From Ignavibacteriota bacterium (GTDB lineage: Bacteria; Bacteroidota; Ignavibacteria; UBA10030; SZUA-254), in the NCBI GenBank assembly GCA_016212665.1, contig JACREZ010000023.1:62001-126000 (forward strand): a DNA stretch of 64,000 nt, in the 5' to 3' direction. How positions within the stretch are numbered: the first letter of the stretch is position 1; every line of letters begins with the position of its first letter. Under the pieces are notes generated by a model that was not told the origin of the DNA, did no database searches, and worked only from the letters and a program-made list of their open reading frames with translations. Shown in pieces: positions 9,244 to 47,103 of the stretch. Both the position numbers and the translations under genes were made by a program.

Positions 9244-9660
9244 ATGACTAAAATATTTCTCTCTTTGTTTGTTCTCATTTTGATTTCATTTTCAAGTCAA
9301 GTCTGTATAGCCCAGCACGATGATTCATCAAAAAATAAATCTCCCGAAAAGAAGTACGACATGAAAACTTACTACATGGTTTTCCTGAAAAAGGGACCGA
9401 ATCGTGACCAGGACTCAGTGACGGCGGCGAAGATTCAGGAAGGACACCTTGCGAACATCGGACGACTTGCAGAGTTAGGAAAGATTGCCATCGCCGGACC
9501 GTTCTTAGATGAAGGAGACGTTCGCGGAATCTTCATCATGGATTGCAGTTCGAAGGAAGAAGCGGACTCGCTTTGTCAGACCGACCCGGCTGTGAAAGCA
9601 GGAAGACTGAAAGCGGAAGTGCGTCCGTGGATGAGCGCACGAGGAGCGAAACTACCGTGA
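9244..9660 (+). CDS. Secreted YciI-like domain protein
   Basis: A 138-residue protein with a clear signal peptide (MTKIFLSLFVLILISFSSQVCIAQ). It is followed by a short polar linker and a YCII-related domain: YYMVFLKKGPNRDQD, then HLANIGRLAELGKIAIAGPF and the EADSLCQTDPAVKAGR segment. YciI proteins are small dimeric alpha/beta-barrel proteins with a conserved His-Asp pair that may be catalytic. H in GHLANI and D in QTDPAV are present here. Exported versions are common in Bacteroidota and their substrate is unknown. The stop codon TGA is itself the beginning of a 7-nt-phased repeat array. Confidence 0.8.
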   Translation: MTKIFLSLFVLILISFSSQVCIAQHDDSSKNKSPEKKYDMKTYYMVFLKKGPNRDQDSVTAAKIQEGHLANIGRLAELGKIAIAGPFLDEGDVRGIFIMDCSSKEEADSLCQTDPAVKAGRLKAEVRPWMSARGAKLP

Positions 9661-9692
9661 TTTGTGATTGGTGATTAGTGATTCGTGAATCA
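9658..9692 (+). repeat. 7-nt-phased degenerate array
   Basis: Five consecutive 7-base units of the form TGANTNR, for example TGATTTG and TGATTAG. The first three bases are the stop codon of the YciI-like gene. Phase is exact although the units differ from one another. Confidence 0.85.
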
Positions 9693-9778
9693 TTTAGTTT
9701 CAATCATTCCTTTCATATTGTATGTATTTCTTTGTTTCAAAAATATATTGCTAAATCTTACATCTCAAGTCATGAATC

Positions 9779-11014
9779 ATGAATAAACAAAAGACTCACC
9801 ACTCACGACTCACCACTCACGACTCACCTTTACAAGGAATTAAGGTTCTCGATTTAACGCGAATCCTTTCCGGTCCTTTCTGCACTATGAAGTTGGGTGA
9901 CATGGGTGCGGAAGTCATCAAGATTGAACAACCGGGGAAAGGGGACGACACTCGTTCGTGGGGACCGCCGTTCGTGAAAGGTGAGAGCGCGTATTTTCTC
10001 AGTGTCAACCGGAACAAGAAAAGCGTTACACTTGATTTGAAAGCGAAGGAAGGAAAAGAAATTCTCACAAAGCTCATCAAGTCGTGTGATGTGTTGGTGG
10101 AAAATTTCCGTGCGGGAGTGATGGAGAGTTTGGGATTTGATTACGCAAAAGCAAAAAAGTTAAATCCGAGACTTGTGTATTGTTCGATTTCCGGCTACGG
10201 ACAGACGAGCAGTCGCAGCCATCAACCGAGCTACGATTTGATTGTGCAGGGCGAATCGGGATTGATGGATGTAACGGGATTTCCTAACGGAGCGCCGACA
10301 AAAGCAGGAATTTCTCTCGCCGATGTTACGGCGGGAACACTTGCGTTCGAAGGAATTCTGCTTGCATTATTTCATCGAGAACGAACAGGGAAAGGTCAGC
10401 AAGTTGATATTAGTTTGCTCGATGGTTTGCTTTCGCTGTTCGCGTATCAATCGCAAATTGCACTTTCATCAGACAGAAAAGTGACACGCAAAGGAAATCG
10501 CCATCCGACTATTACGCCGTACGAAACGTTTGAGACGAAAGACGGATTCATCAACGTAGCCGTGGGAAGCGAATCTCACTGGAAGAATTTTTGTACAGCG
10601 ATCAAGCGAGATGATTTAATCCAACATGAACAATTTGCAACCAACTCGAAACGGGTTGAGAACCGCGAAGCGTTAGAGAACATTCTTGTTCCCATCATGA
10701 AATCAAAAAAGAGGAGTGAGTGGCTGAAGATTTTATTAAAGGCAGATGTTCCGGTGGGAAATATCAATTCACTTTCGGAAGCGTTGCAAATGGAAACGGT
10801 AGCCGAACGTGAGATGGTTGTAGCAGTGAAACACCCGGCTATCGGAACTTTGAAGATGGTTGGTAATCCCATCAAATTATCAACCACGAAGGACATCAAG
10901 CGCACGAAGTTTTCACCGCCGCCGTTGTTAAGTCAGCACACGAATGAAGTATTGGGGTTGCTTGGATATTCTGACTCCGACATTAACGAGTTGAAGCGAC
11001 ACAAAATAATTTGA
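9779..11014 (+). CDS. Class III CoA-transferase (CaiB/BaiF family)
   Basis: A 411-residue family III acyl-CoA:carboxylic acid CoA-transferase. The conserved core starts at PLQGIKVLDLTRILSGPF near residue 17 and includes GDMGAEVIKIEQPGKGDDTR, the SVNRNKKSVTLDLK block and VLVENFRAG. The catalytic aspartate of this family is expected in the segment around YDLIVQGESGLM. The first 16 residues (MNKQKTHHSRLTTHDS) match nothing in the family. They are encoded by five exact 7-base units of the ACTCAC(C/G) type at 9794-9828. Either translation really begins at 9779 and reads through the repeat, or an unusual start lies downstream; no good ATG is available after the repeat. The substrate cannot be read from the sequence. 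Confidence 0.88.
   Translation: MNKQKTHHSRLTTHDSPLQGIKVLDLTRILSGPFCTMKLGDMGAEVIKIEQPGKGDDTRSWGPPFVKGESAYFLSVNRNKKSVTLDLKAKEGKEILTKLIKSCDVLVENFRAGVMESLGFDYAKAKKLNPRLVYCSISGYGQTSSRSHQPSYDLIVQGESGLMDVTGFPNGAPTKAGISLADVTAGTLAFEGILLALFHRERTGKGQQVDISLLDGLLSLFAYQSQIALSSDRKVTRKGNRHPTITPYETFETKDGFINVAVGSESHWKNFCTAIKRDDLIQHEQFATNSKRVENREALENILVPIMKSKKRSEWLKILLKADVPVGNINSLSEALQMETVAEREMVVAVKHPAIGTLKMVGNPIKLSTTKDIKRTKFSPPPLLSQHTNEVLGLLGYSDSDINELKRHKII
9794..9828 (+). repeat. 7-nt-phased array inside the CoA-transferase N-terminus
   Basis: Five contiguous 7-mers alternating ACTCACC and ACTCACG. This is the most homogeneous heptamer array in the window. It is read as the non-homologous N-terminal peptide of the CoA-transferase. 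Confidence 0.9.
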
Positions 11015-15059: not shown

Positions 15060-16304
15060 ATGGAAAAATTAGTTCATCGCTTGTTCATTTTTATTTTGAT
15101 AAATTTTATTTCCCTGAATGCCCAGGATTTCTGGCAAGCAACTTCCGTTACCACCGGCGCCGGTGCATTTGCAGGCAGAGACGGATATTTGTACTTCACC
15201 AATGGTGTATCGCTTTATCGAACTCTCGATTATGCCACTACGTGGGATTCTCTCCTCACTCTACCAAGCGGTACATATTTTAACGGTGGATTGGCAACAA
15301 CCATAGGGAATATTTTTATTGCTACAAATGGTTCGGGAATGATTCGCTCGACCGACGACGGAGCAACGTGGTCTGCAATTAACACGGGATTTTCGGGCAC
15401 TGAAGCACGGTGGCCCACAATGAGTCCTTCCGGAACTTTATTTATCGGCTCGGTCAGTAACGGAATCTTTCGTTCGACAAATAACGGAGATAGCTGGACA
15501 CAAGTTAATTCCGGCCTAACAAATTTGAATATCGGTTCGCTTGCTGTCACTTCTTCCGGAATTCTGTTTACCGGAGTGAAAGGAAGCAACGGTGTCTTTA
15601 CATCAACAGATAACGGTGACTCGTGGACGCAAACCAGTTTGACGACGTCGGTGCGTATTTATTCTCTTTCAGTTGACAACAATGGTTACATTTATGCCGG
15701 AAGCAGATATGACCCGAACGCTCCTAATCCTAATGGTTTTTATCGCTCAACAGACAACGGCGGAACATGGACGCACTATGGTTTAGCCGGACAATCAATC
15801 AACACGTCAGGAGCTATTTTTGTAAACGGAAAAATTTATGCTGCAACCGATGCTAACGGTATTTTCAAATCGGCAGACAATGGCGCGACATGGGATAGCA
15901 TCAACACGGGATTACCAACTCGGGGAATATTAACTCTGTCTCTTTCAAACGGACATCTGTTTGCCGGAACGTATAATGGATTATTCAAGAGTTCAGAAAA
16001 TGTTACTGCAATAACTGAAGACAGAAACAGTATAATTCCCTCCACTGTTTCTCTGCTTCAAAACTATCCGAATCCATTCAACCCGACAACGAATTTTGGA
16101 TTTCGAATTGCCAATTTCGGATTGGTGACGATGAAGGTGTTTGATGTTTTGGGGAGAGAAGTAGCAACGCTTGTCAACGAAGAACTTCATCCGGGTATGT
16201 ATTCGGTCACGTGGGATGCTTCTGCTCAACCGAGCGGAATGTACTATTACAAACTTCAAACTGCCGATGTTGAGAAAACAAAACCGATGGTTCTCATAAA
16301 GTAA
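15060..16304 (+). CDS. T9SS-secreted BNR/YCF48-type beta-propeller protein
   Basis: A 414-residue protein with a signal peptide (KLVHRLFIFILINFISLNA) and seven or so short repeats ending in S-T-D-x-G-x-T-W (RSTDDGATW, RSTNNGDSW, KSADNGATW). These are the Asp-box/YCF48-like blades of a beta-propeller. The last 85 residues are a type A T9SS sorting domain (LLQNYPNPFNPTTN, VFDVLGREVATLVNEE, PSGMYYYKLQT), so the protein should be exported across the outer membrane and anchored or released. The sorting domain contains an odd FGFRIANFGL segment coded by five ATTNNNN heptamers at 16093-16127. No enzymatic residues are recognisable. Confidence 0.88.
   Translation: MEKLVHRLFIFILINFISLNAQDFWQATSVTTGAGAFAGRDGYLYFTNGVSLYRTLDYATTWDSLLTLPSGTYFNGGLATTIGNIFIATNGSGMIRSTDDGATWSAINTGFSGTEARWPTMSPSGTLFIGSVSNGIFRSTNNGDSWTQVNSGLTNLNIGSLAVTSSGILFTGVKGSNGVFTSTDNGDSWTQTSLTTSVRIYSLSVDNNGYIYAGSRYDPNAPNPNGFYRSTDNGGTWTHYGLAGQSINTSGAIFVNGKIYAATDANGIFKSADNGATWDSINTGLPTRGILTLSLSNGHLFAGTYNGLFKSSENVTAITEDRNSIIPSTVSLLQNYPNPFNPTTNFGFRIANFGLVTMKVFDVLGREVATLVNEELHPGMYSVTWDASAQPSGMYYYKLQTADVEKTKPMVLIK
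16093..16127 (+). repeat. 7-nt-phased array inside a T9SS domain
   Basis: Five exact 7-base units all beginning ATT (for example ATTTCGA and ATTGCCA). They are translated as FGFRIANFGL, where the family normally has a variable beta-strand such as I-x-Y-x-L. Confidence 0.8.
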
Positions 16305-28316: not shown

Positions 28317-28393
28317 TGATTGGTGAGTAGTGAATAGTTAGTAGTAATTAGTGATGTTGGTCTGAAACACAAAACACAAAACTCAAACCCGAA
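28317..28393 (+). repeat. 7-nt-phased array (11 units) abutting uvrA
   Basis: Eleven units in exact phase. It begins with TGANTAG-type units (TGAGTAG, TGAATAG), changes to TTAG types, and ends with AACACAA and AACTCAA types. The last unit ends one base before the uvrA ATG at 28395. Confidence 0.85.
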
Positions 28394-28394
28394 C

Positions 28395-31232
28395 ATGAAA
28401 TCTGAGATCAAACAAACCAAAGACAAGAAACGAAAAACAAAAAACAATCAACCTGACGGCAAGAACATTGTCATACGCGGCGCGCGCGTCCATAACCTCA
28501 AAAACATCTCGCTTGAACTTCCGAGAAACAAACTGATTGTCTTTACAGGAGTGAGTGGCTCGGGGAAGTCATCGCTCGCGTTTGATACGATCTATGCTGA
28601 AGGGCAACGCCGCTTTGTTGAAAGTCTCTCCTCATATGCGCGGCAGTTCCTTGAACGGATGGAGAAACCGGAAGTGGATTTCATTCAGGGAATCAGTCCG
28701 GCGATTGCGATTGAACAAAAGACTTCGACGCGCAATCCACGTTCAACCGTTGGCACAAGCACGGAGGTGTATGATTATCTTCGTTTGCTGTACGGAAGAA
28801 TCGGGAAAGTATTCTGCTCGAACTGCGGGAAGGTTGTTCAGCGCGATTCCGTGCGAACTGTTGTTGAACGATTGAATGAAACGTACGCAGGGAAGCCATC
28901 AACAAAAATTTATGTGATGTTTCCTGTGGCTGAACATCCCAAAACGAAAATGACGGATGAACTTGCCCGCTTAAAGCAACAAGGATTTGTCAGAATACTT
29001 TTCAAGAATGAACTGATTGACGTCTCGGAAACGGATTTCACAGAAACGACATCGAAGGAAAAAGTTACTGTCGTTGTTGACCGGCTCACCTTCAAACCCG
29101 GAACGAACGACTCGCGTTTTGCCGATTCCGTGGAAACGGCTTTTCGGGCGGGAGAAGGTTCACTGATAATTCATGATGTCGGGACGGGAAACAATATTCC
29201 GTTCAATCAGCAATTCGCGTGTGCCGACTGCGGAGTTAAATACGAAGAGCCCGATCCGCGATTGTTTTCGTTCAACAATCCGTTTGGTGCGTGTCCCAAG
29301 TGCGAAGGGTTTGGTCGTTCCATCAGTCTTGATTTGGATTTAGTCATTCCCAACAAAAACCTCTCGCTTGAAGAAGGAGCCATCCATCCATGGACGATGC
29401 CCAAGTGGAAAGAGAACCTCAACGACTTGCTGAAGATTGCAGGCGATGTCGGTGTTCGAACTGATGTTCCCTTCAGGGAGTTATCAAAAAAAGAATTGGA
29501 TGTTGTGTTTAACGGTTGTAAAGGATTCGATGGAATTTTTCGCTTCTTCAAATTCATCGAGTCGAAATTATACAAAGTGCATTACCGTGTGTTTCTCAGT
29601 CGCTTCCGTCGTTACACGACATGCGATACGTGCGGTGGTTCGCGGCTTCGCCCTGCCGCGCTGAATGTATTTGTTGGTGAGAAATCCATCGGTGAGATTG
29701 TTCGTTTGCCGATTGAAGAAGCACGAAAGTTCTTCGAGCAGATTCAACTTTCGGAATATGAAACGGAAGTAGCAAAACGAATTTTGGATGAACTGAAACG
29801 ACGGCTTACCTATCTCGATGAAATCGGAATCGGATATTTGACACTCGACCGGCTTTCCAACACGCTTTCCGGAGGCGAGTCTCAGCGAATCAATTTATCC
29901 ACTGCGCTTGGTTCTTCGCTTGTCGGTTCGCTCTATGTTCTTGATGAGCCGAGCATCGGACTGCATCCGCGCGATACGCAACGACTTGTCAATATTATGA
30001 AATCGCTGAGAGATGTCGGTAACACGGTGCTGGTCGTTGAGCATGATTCGGATATCATGAACAGCGCTGATTACATTGTTGATATGGGACCGGCGGCGGG
30101 CGAGTTGGGCGGCGAAATTGTGTTTGAAGGAAGTCCCGACAAGTTATCTTCAAGCAAAACGCTGACGGCAAAGTATCTTCGCGGCGAACTGAACATTTCC
30201 GTTCCAACTGAACGGAGAACGAAGAAGGCAGAGTCAATCAAGGTGCGAAACGCAATGGCGCATAATCTCAAATCCATTGATATTGAAATCCCGTTGAAGA
30301 AGTTTGTTTGTGTAACAGGTGTGAGCGGTTCGGGTAAAAGTACGCTCGTGCATGAGATTGTATTCCCTTCAATAAAGGCGATGAAAGAATCGGGGAGCGA
30401 ACTTGCGGGAGTAAAAGGAACGGTGGAAGGCGCGCATCATGTGGATGCAGTCGAACTTGTTGACCAATCGCCGATTGGAAAAACTCCCCGCTCGAATCCG
30501 GCAACCTACATCGGCGCGTACGATGTGATTCGCGAAGTGTTCGCCAACACGCAAGCCTCGAAGATTCGCGGGTTCAAGCCGGGCTCGTTTTCGTTCAACG
30601 TCCCCGGCGGGCGGTGCGATACGTGCGAAGGAAGCGGCATACAAACAATCGAGATGCAGTTCCTTGCCGATTTGGAACTGACGTGCGAGAGTTGCAACGG
30701 CAAGCGATTCAAGAAAGAAATTCTCGCCGTTCACTATCACGACAAAAACATTGACGACGTGCTGAACATGACTGTCTCCGATGCGATTCTGTTTTTTCGT
30801 CAGCAACAGACGGGAAGGAAAATTGTGCAGAGATTGCAAGTGCTTGAAGATGTCGGCATGGGTTACATTCGTCTCGGTCAATCGGCGACGACTCTTTCGG
30901 GCGGCGAAGCACAGCGCGTAAAGTTAGCCGCGCATCTTGCCGAGCAACAACAAGGAAAGCACACGCTCTACATTTTTGATGAGCCGACCACCGGCTTGCA
31001 CTTCGACGACATTGTAAAACTGTTGAGATGCTTCAACGCACTGCTCGAAAAAGGAAACTCGCTTCTCATCATCGAGCATAACATGGAAGTGATTAAATGC
31101 GCGGATTGGATACTTGATTTAGGTCCCGAAGCAGGAGACCGCGGTGGAGAAGTTGTTGTTGCCGGAACGCCAGAGACCGTGGCGAAGTGTGAGAAGTCGT
31201 TTACGGGTGTGTTTTTGAGGAAGTATTTATGA
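28395..31232 (+). CDS. uvrA: Excinuclease ABC subunit A
   Basis: The damage-recognition ATPase of nucleotide excision repair, 945 residues. Homology starts at [18 protein letters not shown] near residue 24. The preceding lysine-rich extension ([18 protein letters not shown]) lies directly after a 7-nt-phased array and may be repeat-derived. Two ABC modules are complete: Walker [17 protein letters not shown] and [13 protein letters not shown], signatures [16 protein letters not shown] and [15 protein letters not shown], and Walker B regions [12 protein letters not shown] and [12 protein letters not shown]. Zinc modules include [13 protein letters not shown]...CPKC and CDTCEGSG...CESC. No ribosome site is obvious. 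No uvrB or uvrC is nearby, as is usual. Confidence 0.97.
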
Positions 31233-31390: not shown

Positions 31391-31969
31391 ATGCTTCGTA
31401 AAGTTATCTTCGCACAAGACGAATATTACCACATCTATAATCGTGGTTGCAACCGGGAAAATATATTTCTGTCGGATGAAAATTACCGTTTTCTTCTGAG
31501 AAACCTTAAATCGTTGGTTGAAGAATATAATGTTTGTGTAATAGCATACTGTCTCATGCCCAATCATTATCACTTTCTGCTCAGACAAGATGGTGAGAAA
31601 AACTCGGGTAAACTCATTCAGTTTCTCTTCAACAAATACACGAAGGCATTTAATGCAATGCATAAACGAACCGGAACATTGTTTGAGGGTCCATTCAAAG
31701 CAATTCATGTTGACAAGCAGGAGTACTTGATACACCTCTGTCGTTATATTCATCGTAACCCTCTCGAGGCGGGATTAGTTGCAAACATCGAAGATTGGGA
31801 ATACACAAATTATTTGGAATGGATTGGAAAACGAAAAGGGATGTTATGGGATAAAGAATTTGTCAATGATAATTTTAGAACGGCGGAAGAGTACAAAAAA
31901 TTTGTTCTTGAATATATTTCTCCTAAAAAGTTGGAGGAGGAATGGAGGAAATACAGAATAGAACGATAG
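31391..31969 (+). CDS. REP-associated tyrosine transposase (RAYT, Y1/IS200-like)
   Basis: A 192-residue single-domain HUH-type transposase. Motifs: HIYNRGCNRENIF near the N-terminus, CLMPNHYHFLLRQ with the metal-binding His-x-His pair, then FNAMHKRTGTLFEGPFKAI and LCRYIHRNPLEAGLV, which together define the TnpA-REP/RAYT group of Y1 transposases. RAYTs are domesticated single-copy relatives of IS200 transposases that bind and nick REP hairpins. They usually sit between REP elements, as this one does (hairpins at 31243-31318 and 32010-32086). The frame is intact. There is no partner tnpB and no insertion-sequence left/right end structure beyond the hairpins. Confidence 0.93.
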   Translation: MLRKVIFAQDEYYHIYNRGCNRENIFLSDENYRFLLRNLKSLVEEYNVCVIAYCLMPNHYHFLLRQDGEKNSGKLIQFLFNKYTKAFNAMHKRTGTLFEGPFKAIHVDKQEYLIHLCRYIHRNPLEAGLVANIEDWEYTNYLEWIGKRKGMLWDKEFVNDNFRTAEEYKKFVLEYISPKKLEEEWRKYRIER

Positions 31970-39560: not shown

Positions 39561-39573
39561 AAAATCTATAAAC

Positions 39574-39603
39574 AAAAAACCCCGCACGTGTGCGGGGTTT
39601 TGG
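39574..39603. terminator. Bidirectional intrinsic terminator
   Basis: Stem AAACCCCGCAC / GTGCGGGGTTT with A-run and T-run on the two sides. It serves both the YceI-TPR gene (+) and the cold-shock gene (-). Confidence 0.93.
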
Positions 39604-39622
39604 TTATAGTACAGAATCTCGT

Positions 39623-39820
39623 TTAGAGAACTGAAACGTTCGCAGCCTGAAATCCTTTCGGACCTTTCTCGACATCGAACTCTACCTTATCACCCTCGTT
39701 GAGAGTTTTAAGTCCGCCGGAGAGAGCTTTGTAATGAACAAAGACATCTTCGCCATTGGGACGTGCGATAAAGCCGAAGCCTTTAACTGTGTTAAACCAT
39801 TTGACTGTTCCTGTTTCCAT
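39623..39820 (-). CDS. cspA: Cold-shock domain protein
   Basis: A 65-residue single cold-shock domain that binds single-stranded RNA or DNA. RNP1 is KGFGFI and RNP2 is VFVHY. It starts [17 protein letters not shown], with an AAAGGT ribosome site upstream. The 350-bp region upstream of the start (39821-40172) contains no other gene apart from a 7-nt-phased array at 40073-40156. A long 5' leader, as known for cold-shock genes, would fit there, but I could not identify a promoter with confidence. Gene symbol by family only. Confidence 0.93.
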
Positions 39821-40072
39821 GGAACGACCTTTCTTAATTGTATTGTAAAAGTGTACGCCGCAGTTCTGTGTTAGTAGTAAATATCAATCATTGACGATTG
39901 AAAGTGCTGGTGACCGACTTGTACCGTGAAAGGTGTTAGAGGTAACTTGAGCAGGGTTCAAAAAGCGTTTAAATGCTGAAAATTTAACAAAACGTCAGTT
40001 GGACATAACGGTGTACTGTTATTTGACGCACAAACATACACATATCTTTCCTCAATACCAAACTGTCTTAGT

Positions 40073-40156
40073 CATTGGTCATTTGTTATTGGTGATTTGT
40101 GAGTAGTGAGTAATAATCTTCAATCTTGAATCAGAAATCAGAATTCAACATTCAGC
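40073..40156. repeat. 7-nt-phased array (12 units), clearest drift
   Basis: Exactly 84 bases, twelve 7-mers. The family moves stepwise from CATTGGT through GATTTGT and GAGTAGT to AATCTTG, AATCAGA and ATTCAGC without a single phase break. Confidence 0.9.
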
Positions 40157-40172
40157 AATGGGGAATCACTTA

Positions 40173-41396
40173 TCACCGATGACCTACATCCTTCATTCTG
40201 TAATAAGAGAACACTCCGAACGCCCGCGCCGCTTCGCCTTGTGCATGAACGGTTCCGACAGCACCAACGTTGTAGCCGTCTTCTCCGCCGTGCGGGTTCC
40301 AACCGTTGCGGATTGCATGGTCGGCTTCTCGGTGAAGTGTAAGCGATGCGTTGCCCTGATTGTTCGTCCAAACATGTTCAAGCATCGTTTCGATTTTCGG
40401 AAGGAGGTCGTGTAAACTATCCGGAGCGATGGAATAACCATCAAGCAGGAAATTGACAAACGCTCCGTTTCCGTCCATGTGGATTTGATAGAAATCGCCT
40501 CCATCTACCCAACCTGTTGTTGGGTCCATAATTCTCCGTGCTGTTTCAATGACAATATGTTTGTACTTTTCATCATTTGTTACGCGGTAGAGCGCGCCTG
40601 CAATCGAACAAAACTCCGTTCCATTCCACGGAATTTGTTTTCCGAACGCGGCAAGCCCCGGCGCACCTTCCCATTTGCCATTTCCTTTGTACAATGTCTT
40701 TTCGATGCCGGGAAATTTTTTATCGCCGTTCCAGACAAGAAGCGCATCGTCAAGGAATTGTTTTTCTCCGGTTGCTTCAAATAAATAACATGCAACTGTC
40801 GCCATCTGGTTCATGTTGCTGTTGGTGAAGATGCGTTCGTTCACACGATGTTGCGGTGCCCAGTTGTACCAACTCCAGAATCCTTCATGATTCGAGAGTC
40901 GCCCTTCCGCTTTTGCTTCGAGGTATCTCTGCTTTGCATCTGCGACAAGCCATCCATATTGTTTGCCCGTGAAGTTCCACCAAATCAATTCCGCGAGAGC
41001 TACCCACGCGCGGTCATCAACCCACGTACCGACACACATCTTTCGCATGTCATGCTCATACAAATGAAATCGAAGGAGCGAAGAATCATTTGTTGCTTTG
41101 AATAAGTACGCGTCGCCGATAGCGCCGTACGCGCCTTCCCAACACGGAGTATAGACTTGATGGAAACGAACGGACACTAACTTTGCACGCTCAAGCCATA
41201 TATCGGTTTGCGGTTTCGGGTTTGTAGTTTGGGGGATTGTGTGATTAGTGAATTGTGATTGGTCTTTTTGGTTGAGAAAAAAGAAATAGAAGAGCAGGAA
41301 CAGAACAGAGAAAGTTCCACCCATTATGTAAATAGATTTCCGGTGTGGCTTTTTTCTTTCCGTTTGATGCTGTTTTGATGTGCGTTTCGGTGACAT
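40173..41396 (-). CDS. Membrane-anchored (alpha/alpha)6 glycoside hydrolase, GH76-like
   Basis: A 407-residue protein. A basic N-terminus is followed by one transmembrane helix (about 24-42, YIMGGTFSVLFLLFYFFF), a short linker, and a helical-repeat catalytic domain. The domain shows DDRAWVALAELIWWNFTGKQY (an Asp-Asp pair as in GH76 alpha-1,6-mannanases), NEFCS/NGTEFCSIAGALY, then VDGGDFYQIHMDGNGAFVNFL. The layout fits the six-hairpin fold of GH76 and related families, but I cannot prove the family or substrate from the sequence. The linker SQFTNHTIPQTTNPKPQTD is coded by 7-nt-phased units (41204-41259). It is probably a periplasmic carbohydrate enzyme tethered to the inner membrane. Confidence 0.6.
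   Translation of the reverse strand: MSPKRTSKQHQTERKKPHRKSIYIMGGTFSVLFLLFYFFFLNQKDQSQFTNHTIPQTTNPKPQTDIWLERAKLVSVRFHQVYTPCWEGAYGAIGDAYLFKATNDSSLLRFHLYEHDMRKMCVGTWVDDRAWVALAELIWWNFTGKQYGWLVADAKQRYLEAKAEGRLSNHEGFWSWYNWAPQHRVNERIFTNSNMNQMATVACYLFEATGEKQFLDDALLVWNGDKKFPGIEKTLYKGNGKWEGAPGLAAFGKQIPWNGTEFCSIAGALYRVTNDEKYKHIVIETARRIMDPTTGWVDGGDFYQIHMDGNGAFVNFLLDGYSIAPDSLHDLLPKIETMLEHVWTNNQGNASLTLHREADHAIRNGWNPHGGEDGYNVGAVGTVHAQGEAARAFGVFSYYRMKDVGHR
41204..41259. repeat. 7-nt-phased array inside the GH76-like gene
   Basis: Eight 7-base units in phase, from CGGTTTG and GGGTTTG types to TAGTGAA and TTGTGAT types. They encode the linker between the membrane anchor and the enzyme domain. Confidence 0.85.
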
Positions 41397-46994: not shown

Positions 46995-47047
46995 GTTAAA
47001 ATTCCTATAGCTAATTTTGGTGATGAAAATAATAAGAAGCGCGCAGA

Positions 47048-47103
47048 GTTTCAAGTTTACAGTTTCCGGTTTTCAGTTTCGCGTTTGTCGTTCTGGGTTG
47101 TTC
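47048..47103. repeat. 7-nt-phased array (8 units)
   Basis: Eight consecutive units all beginning GTT, such as GTTTACA, GTTTCCG, GTTTGTC and GTTCTGG, in exact phase. Confidence 0.88.

Follow-up and report, generated by a model that had tools for sequence, protein, structure and literature searches.

Degenerate heptanucleotide arrays have been described in cyanobacteria, where the P6b region of the trnL intron of Nostoc and Calothrix carries Class I (TDNGATT) and Class II (NNTGAGT) units (PMC4476775), as well as in Xanthomonas and Nostoc (PMC4692102) and in Geobacter (PMC2700814). Heptanucleotide arrays are also known from the Beggiatoaceae (PMC4679880). As cited in the latter paper, units of seven nucleotides are the most frequent ones in long bacterial repeats, for which polymerase slippage has been proposed (Mrazek 2007), and Mrazek and colleagues put forward the contact length of the polymerase as the reason for 7 bp.

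The window analysed here (the whole stretch of DNA, 64,000 nucleotides) belongs to a 3.9-Mb genome (G000, contig 23); the named relatives closest to it are metagenome assemblies of Ignavibacteria type. Its array at 40073-40156, and others dispersed through the genome, match the known kind, degenerate heptanucleotide tandem repeats, in a new lineage; a literature search, which was not exhaustive, found no earlier report of such arrays for it. The heptanucleotides responsible for phase variation of Haemophilus influenzae hmw1A are reportedly also 7-bp units of changing number. Unlike the present arrays, however, that repeat is said to be near-perfect, under selection and situated upstream of an adhesin gene.

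The trnL P6b repeats share with our arrays degenerate 7-bp units with GATT or GAGT cores (and even AATCTTC), variable copy number and complementary blocks lying side by side, but they sit in a folding group I intron stem-loop, whereas the present arrays lie mostly in spacers and show no excess folding (PMC4476775). The likeness of the units to those of cyanobacteria may be convergent. The TAACTGA direct repeats of Beggiatoaceae, Cyanobacteria and some Bacteroidetes are likewise intergenic, near start and stop codons and patchy across lineages; they consist of a near-uniform single heptamer with related heptamers rare, in contrast to the many drifting units found here (PMC4679880). Similarly, the GGGNATC/GGGGAYT repeats of Xanthomonas and Nostoc are genome-wide, over-represented in non-coding DNA, variable in number and partly degenerate, yet G-rich and able to form G-quadruplexes, while the present units are mostly AT-rich (PMC4692102).

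A sequence-only reading had proposed that 40073-40156 holds twelve heptamers whose identity drifts stepwise until the outermost units have almost nothing in common, and that this gradient arose by erroneous copying of neighbouring units and records the direction of growth. The coordinates and units proved correct: the interval comprises twelve 7-base units and is intergenic, lying in the spacer between an open reading frame (ORF) and a cold-shock protein gene. The features of the locus are as follows.

39623-39820, minus strand: cold-shock protein gene (65 aa), downstream of the array.
40073-40114, plus strand: left sub-array, six units of the form GTxxxxN (CATTGGT CATTTGT TATTGGT GATTTGT GAGTAGT GAGTAAT), unit identity 0.66 within the block.
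40115-40162, minus strand: right sub-array, units of the form AATCNNN (AATCTTC, AATCTTG, AATCAGA twice, ATTCAAC, ATTCAGC, AATGGGG), identity 0.64 within units 7-12, closest to the left block as its reverse complement.
40163-40199, minus strand: weaker continuation of the array (AATCACT TATCACC GATGACC TACATCC TTCATTC), overlapping the end of the ORF.
40173-41396, minus strand: ORF (407 aa) whose 3' end abuts the array; 22 of 40 relatives have it.

Across 40061-40170, identity at a lag of 7 bases was 0.63, with 0.51, 0.48 and 0.45 at lags of 14, 21 and 28 and 0.16-0.36 at all others. The array runs past 40156 to approximately 40199, where some 11-12 of 21 positions match at lag 7, and this continuation covers the stop and last codons of the ORF. 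No Pfam or NCBIfam family matched the ORF, and the matches of relatives outside the genus stop at about residue 398-403 of 407. On the other side, the leader or promoter region of the cold-shock gene (39821-40072) is well conserved in the sister species. Strong conservation in the sister species was also seen for the region upstream of this gene given by window positions 39573-39980 (minus strand), and the gene with its leader matched the Rfam cspA thermoregulator below threshold (47.7 bits; gathering threshold 78). Elsewhere in the window, 31391-31969 (plus strand) encodes an IS200-like protein with a Y1 transposase domain (PF01797); the genome has seven such matches, this one included.

Neighbouring units of the focal array are 0.714 identical, against 0.459 when unit order is permuted (p=6e-5), and mean unit identity falls from 0.71 at one unit apart to 0.21-0.32 at six or more. 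The likeness of neighbours thus stood, but the drift is interrupted by an abrupt break between units 6 and 7. Units 1-6 and 7-12 form two abutting blocks, and the identity between them is 0.30, the background level; at the junction, GAGTAAT and AATCTTC match at one of seven bases, as expected by chance. Adjacent units inside a block still resemble each other more than under permuted order (p=0.005). Units 1 and 12 are indeed nearly unrelated, largely because of this junction. In its best phase the right block matches the left at 0.51 as reverse complement, 0.37 directly and 0.45 as complement only.

Arrays were called throughout 1.50 Mb of G000 by requiring 26 matches in 42 positions, a threshold kept the same for all lags. 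At lag 7 we found 98 arrays in 826 kb and, in 672 kb of held-out sequence whose retrieval took no account of arrays, a further 77 (175 in total); the other non-multiple lags tested gave 0-14. Their units thus repeat head to tail in 7-bp register above chance, in many dispersed copies. With ORFs taken simply as the longest calls, 113 of the 175 arrays lie mostly outside ORFs and 57 inside, although non-ORF bases make up only about 10%. The spacer arrays stand at a median distance of 4 bp from stop codons and 17 bp from starts. Spacers outside called arrays displayed no lag-7 excess (0.272); a pervasive 7-bp periodicity of all spacers was rejected, the signal being confined to called arrays. Further arrays occur in the window, with no strand assigned.

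9657-9693: heptamer array of the same kind as the focal one, unit GTGATTN.
9752-9827: heptamer array of the same kind, unit ACTCACN.
28365-28452: heptamer array (AAACACA...); the sister-species spacer also has heptamers, of different units.
47047-47092: heptamer array, unit AGTTTNN.

Many type-A sorting domains of the type IX secretion system (T9SS) in G000 also carry heptamers: a GATTTCG array encodes NFGFRISDFGL after NPFNPxT, where a VISYQLPVNSR-type segment is usual, with length and frame unchanged. This version accounted for 9 of 22 sorting-domain motifs in the G000 samples and one of eight in a sister species (G002). The arrays concerned are at the following positions.

Window 16054-16222: T9SS sorting-domain GATTTCG array.
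Contig sample L011, 4051-4092: the same.
Contig sample L181, 8709-8739 and 17319-17352: the same.
Contig sample L214, 3772-3807 and 8552-8609: the same.

An array with a 21-base period (ATTCCGC ATTCCGA YTCCCTA) was seen within an open frame near a contig end (L228, 154-376).

Two sister species have 12.3 and 12.6 arrays per 100 kb, matching G000, though array hits guided the choice of some G002 stretches. In most of the other relatives, sampled over 40-80 kb, the density is 0-4 per 100 kb; one, G016, has a higher density in a single small sample picked by a BLAST hit. In a diverse set of contigs from other Bacteroidota and from Acidobacteriota (889 kb), 44 arrays were called at lag 7 and 18 at lag 8. 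GTCATTN was considered as a universal unit and dropped, being present in 15 of 296 genomes of the phylum, with a backwards-read control pattern also occurring in scattered genomes.

The likeness of neighbours extends to the genome as a whole. Held-out arrays selected on lag 7 gave identities of 0.590, 0.520, 0.450, 0.375, 0.340 and 0.319 at distances of one to six units. Selection on lag 14, a choice biased towards likeness between every second unit, gave 0.566, 0.596, 0.496, 0.449, 0.406 and 0.374, with off-register lags at about 0.30. Over many arrays, therefore, both genome-wide and in the 672 kb of held-out sequence, neighbouring units are more alike than distant ones.

Comparison with sister species showed the array at the same site with its unit content largely changed. 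In G002 it is kept between flanks of 91% identity, but its units differ and aligned identity with G000 is 0.73 even with free gaps; in G001, a heptamer array is retained only at the end of the ORF. Among alignable locus pairs, some of them counted repeatedly, in-array gaps numbered 11 at 7 bp (the commonest size above 3 bp), six at 6 bp and two at 8 bp; copy number therefore differs between sister species in 7-bp steps, with other gap sizes also occurring. Clean gains of 7 and 15 bp were found in one pair (L235/L165). Exact 7-bp indels were also present just outside the trimmed arrays, so the array edges are imprecise. A sister-species locus (L157, 4417-4619) contains a long run of near-identical GATGCTT/GATGCTC units where the orthologous spacer of G000 (L020, 11074-11158) has a short degenerate array, making it a candidate recent expansion.

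We consider it probable that the focal feature is a degenerate heptanucleotide tandem-repeat locus shaped by slippage-type 7-bp duplication and loss together with point mutation. Register, decay of similarity between neighbours, 7-bp indels between sister species and enrichment in spacers are all observed; slippage as the molecular step is inferred, and so is neutrality, no function having been found. A 7-bp unit, sometimes two, would be duplicated beside itself or lost by slippage anywhere in the array, and point mutations would build up between these events. Because the products of a recent duplication lie side by side, similarity would fade with distance, producing a local gradient that has no growth direction. 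Arrays would persist mostly in spacers, which tolerate length changes of 7 bp, and would fill them up to the stop and start codons; the focal locus would represent two slippage-grown sub-arrays that now abut. Copying of neighbouring units with errors is supported as the source of the gradient by the decay with unit distance and by the 7-bp gains and losses, evidence for turnover at the level of sister species in which single duplication events are not seen directly.

Simulations were compared with the real decay by eye, with no formal fit. Real identities at one to six units were 0.649, 0.564, 0.479, 0.396, 0.346 and 0.320. A stationary birth-death process with mutation came close (0.681, 0.549, 0.465, 0.420, 0.385 and 0.361), pure interior growth reached a plateau near 0.5, and one-ended growth fell too fast. 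Judged on these models, turnover by duplication and loss in both directions would best fit the decay, better than growth from one end. The columns of the unit are unequally conserved (z=14.6), with a ratio of 1.72 in the real arrays; simulated ratios were 1.5-1.7 for single-unit duplication and 2.6-2.8 for mixed block duplications. Fixed anchor positions were hence set aside as proof against slippage, since simulated slippage yields similar heterogeneity.

Slippage acting separately at every locus leaves the vocabulary of units shared across loci unexplained. A 14-mer was shared by 279 pairs of arrays, against 42 in a reversed-sequence control, and either seeds in common or a degree of copying from locus to locus would account for this. 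Template switching or gene conversion might place copies of array segments at other loci, the arrays then being mosaics drawn from a shared pool of units, and we regard this account as rather unlikely. Multi-unit strings are common to arrays at different loci, the focal array has an abrupt block junction, and exact order is shared slightly more often than with unit-order-reversed arrays (21 versus 12 pairs at 18 bp; 13 versus 5 at 20 bp). What is shared, however, consists mostly of repeated units and remains shared after unit order is reversed; loci have no common flanks or element boundaries, and BLAST matches between them are confined to the heptamers. It is more doubtful still that the heptamer arrays of the genus constitute a self-propagating sequence in 7-bp register, in which template switching between loci would overwrite DNA at unchanged length, including 10-11 codons of T9SS sorting domains, with the vocabulary inherited from array to array.

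Directional growth, whereby each new unit is copied with errors from the last unit at one end and the array becomes a time line, is highly improbable. It would produce the fading of neighbour similarity and is in keeping with the left block, where identity to unit 1 drops from 6 to 3 of 7, but it would demand 40-50% error per copied base, its simulated decay outpaces the real one, and the focal array breaks abruptly in the middle. The frequency of near-identical neighbours is the same at both array ends (0.32 and 0.32) and lower mid-array, a dip that is partly an artefact of trimming ends on matches. A recurring polarity, CATT>GATT>GAGT, appeared in a first pass (26 runs up, 4 down) and was abandoned when it vanished in held-out loci; that pass was circular because many loci had been fetched as BLAST matches of the focal array. 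Under a class order set in advance, the balance was 6 up to 5 down in held-out loci (p=0.22) and 7 up to 3 down in those earlier loci that BLAST had not picked (p about 0.04), while whole-genome counts for G000 retained a small excess (9 forward, 2 reverse) in which five or six forward cases came from the BLAST-chosen set. A fixed growth direction of the arrays is unsupported, and so is this part of the sequence-only reading.

We give very little credence to the arrays being a selected element whose function, say as a 3'-end or leader structure, would be that of a hairpin, a terminator or an array bound by protein; Csp-type proteins have been suggested as binders of heptamers. Arrays abut stop codons, the right focal block is most like the left one when reverse-complemented, and a cold-shock gene lies adjacent, CspB binding to heptamer repeats having been discussed elsewhere (PMC4679880). 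This adjacency is a single case, however, and the units are largely replaced in the sister species between the 91%-identical flanks. Folding z-scores of arrays do not differ from those of other spacers (mean -0.56 versus -0.88, p=0.29; focal array -1.6), and a hairpin or terminator function was rejected on this absence of excess folding. By the same measure, the arrays lack the palindrome with stable hairpin typical of REP/REPIN elements, nor does their presence track Y1 transposases: 40-kb samples of G006 and G024 contained no arrays, although these genomes have 11 and 13 Y1_Tnp matches, whereas G009 has arrays and no Y1_Tnp match, and mobilisation by RAYT was dismissed. A CRISPR array, in which identical repeats are separated by unique spacers of 25-40 bp, was ruled out by contiguous units, and a phage or plasmid origin was discarded, with no phage match in the focal array and plasmid matches limited to short, scattered ones in a sister-species array.

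Duplication and loss without any direction are thus expected to leave a gradient of unit identity such as that of the focal array, and growth direction should not be read from it. It has long been asked why degenerate bacterial repeats favour a 7-bp unit, and this genus (three species with about 12 arrays per 100 kb, versus 0-4 in most other relatives sampled) offers a lineage in which the question could be tested.
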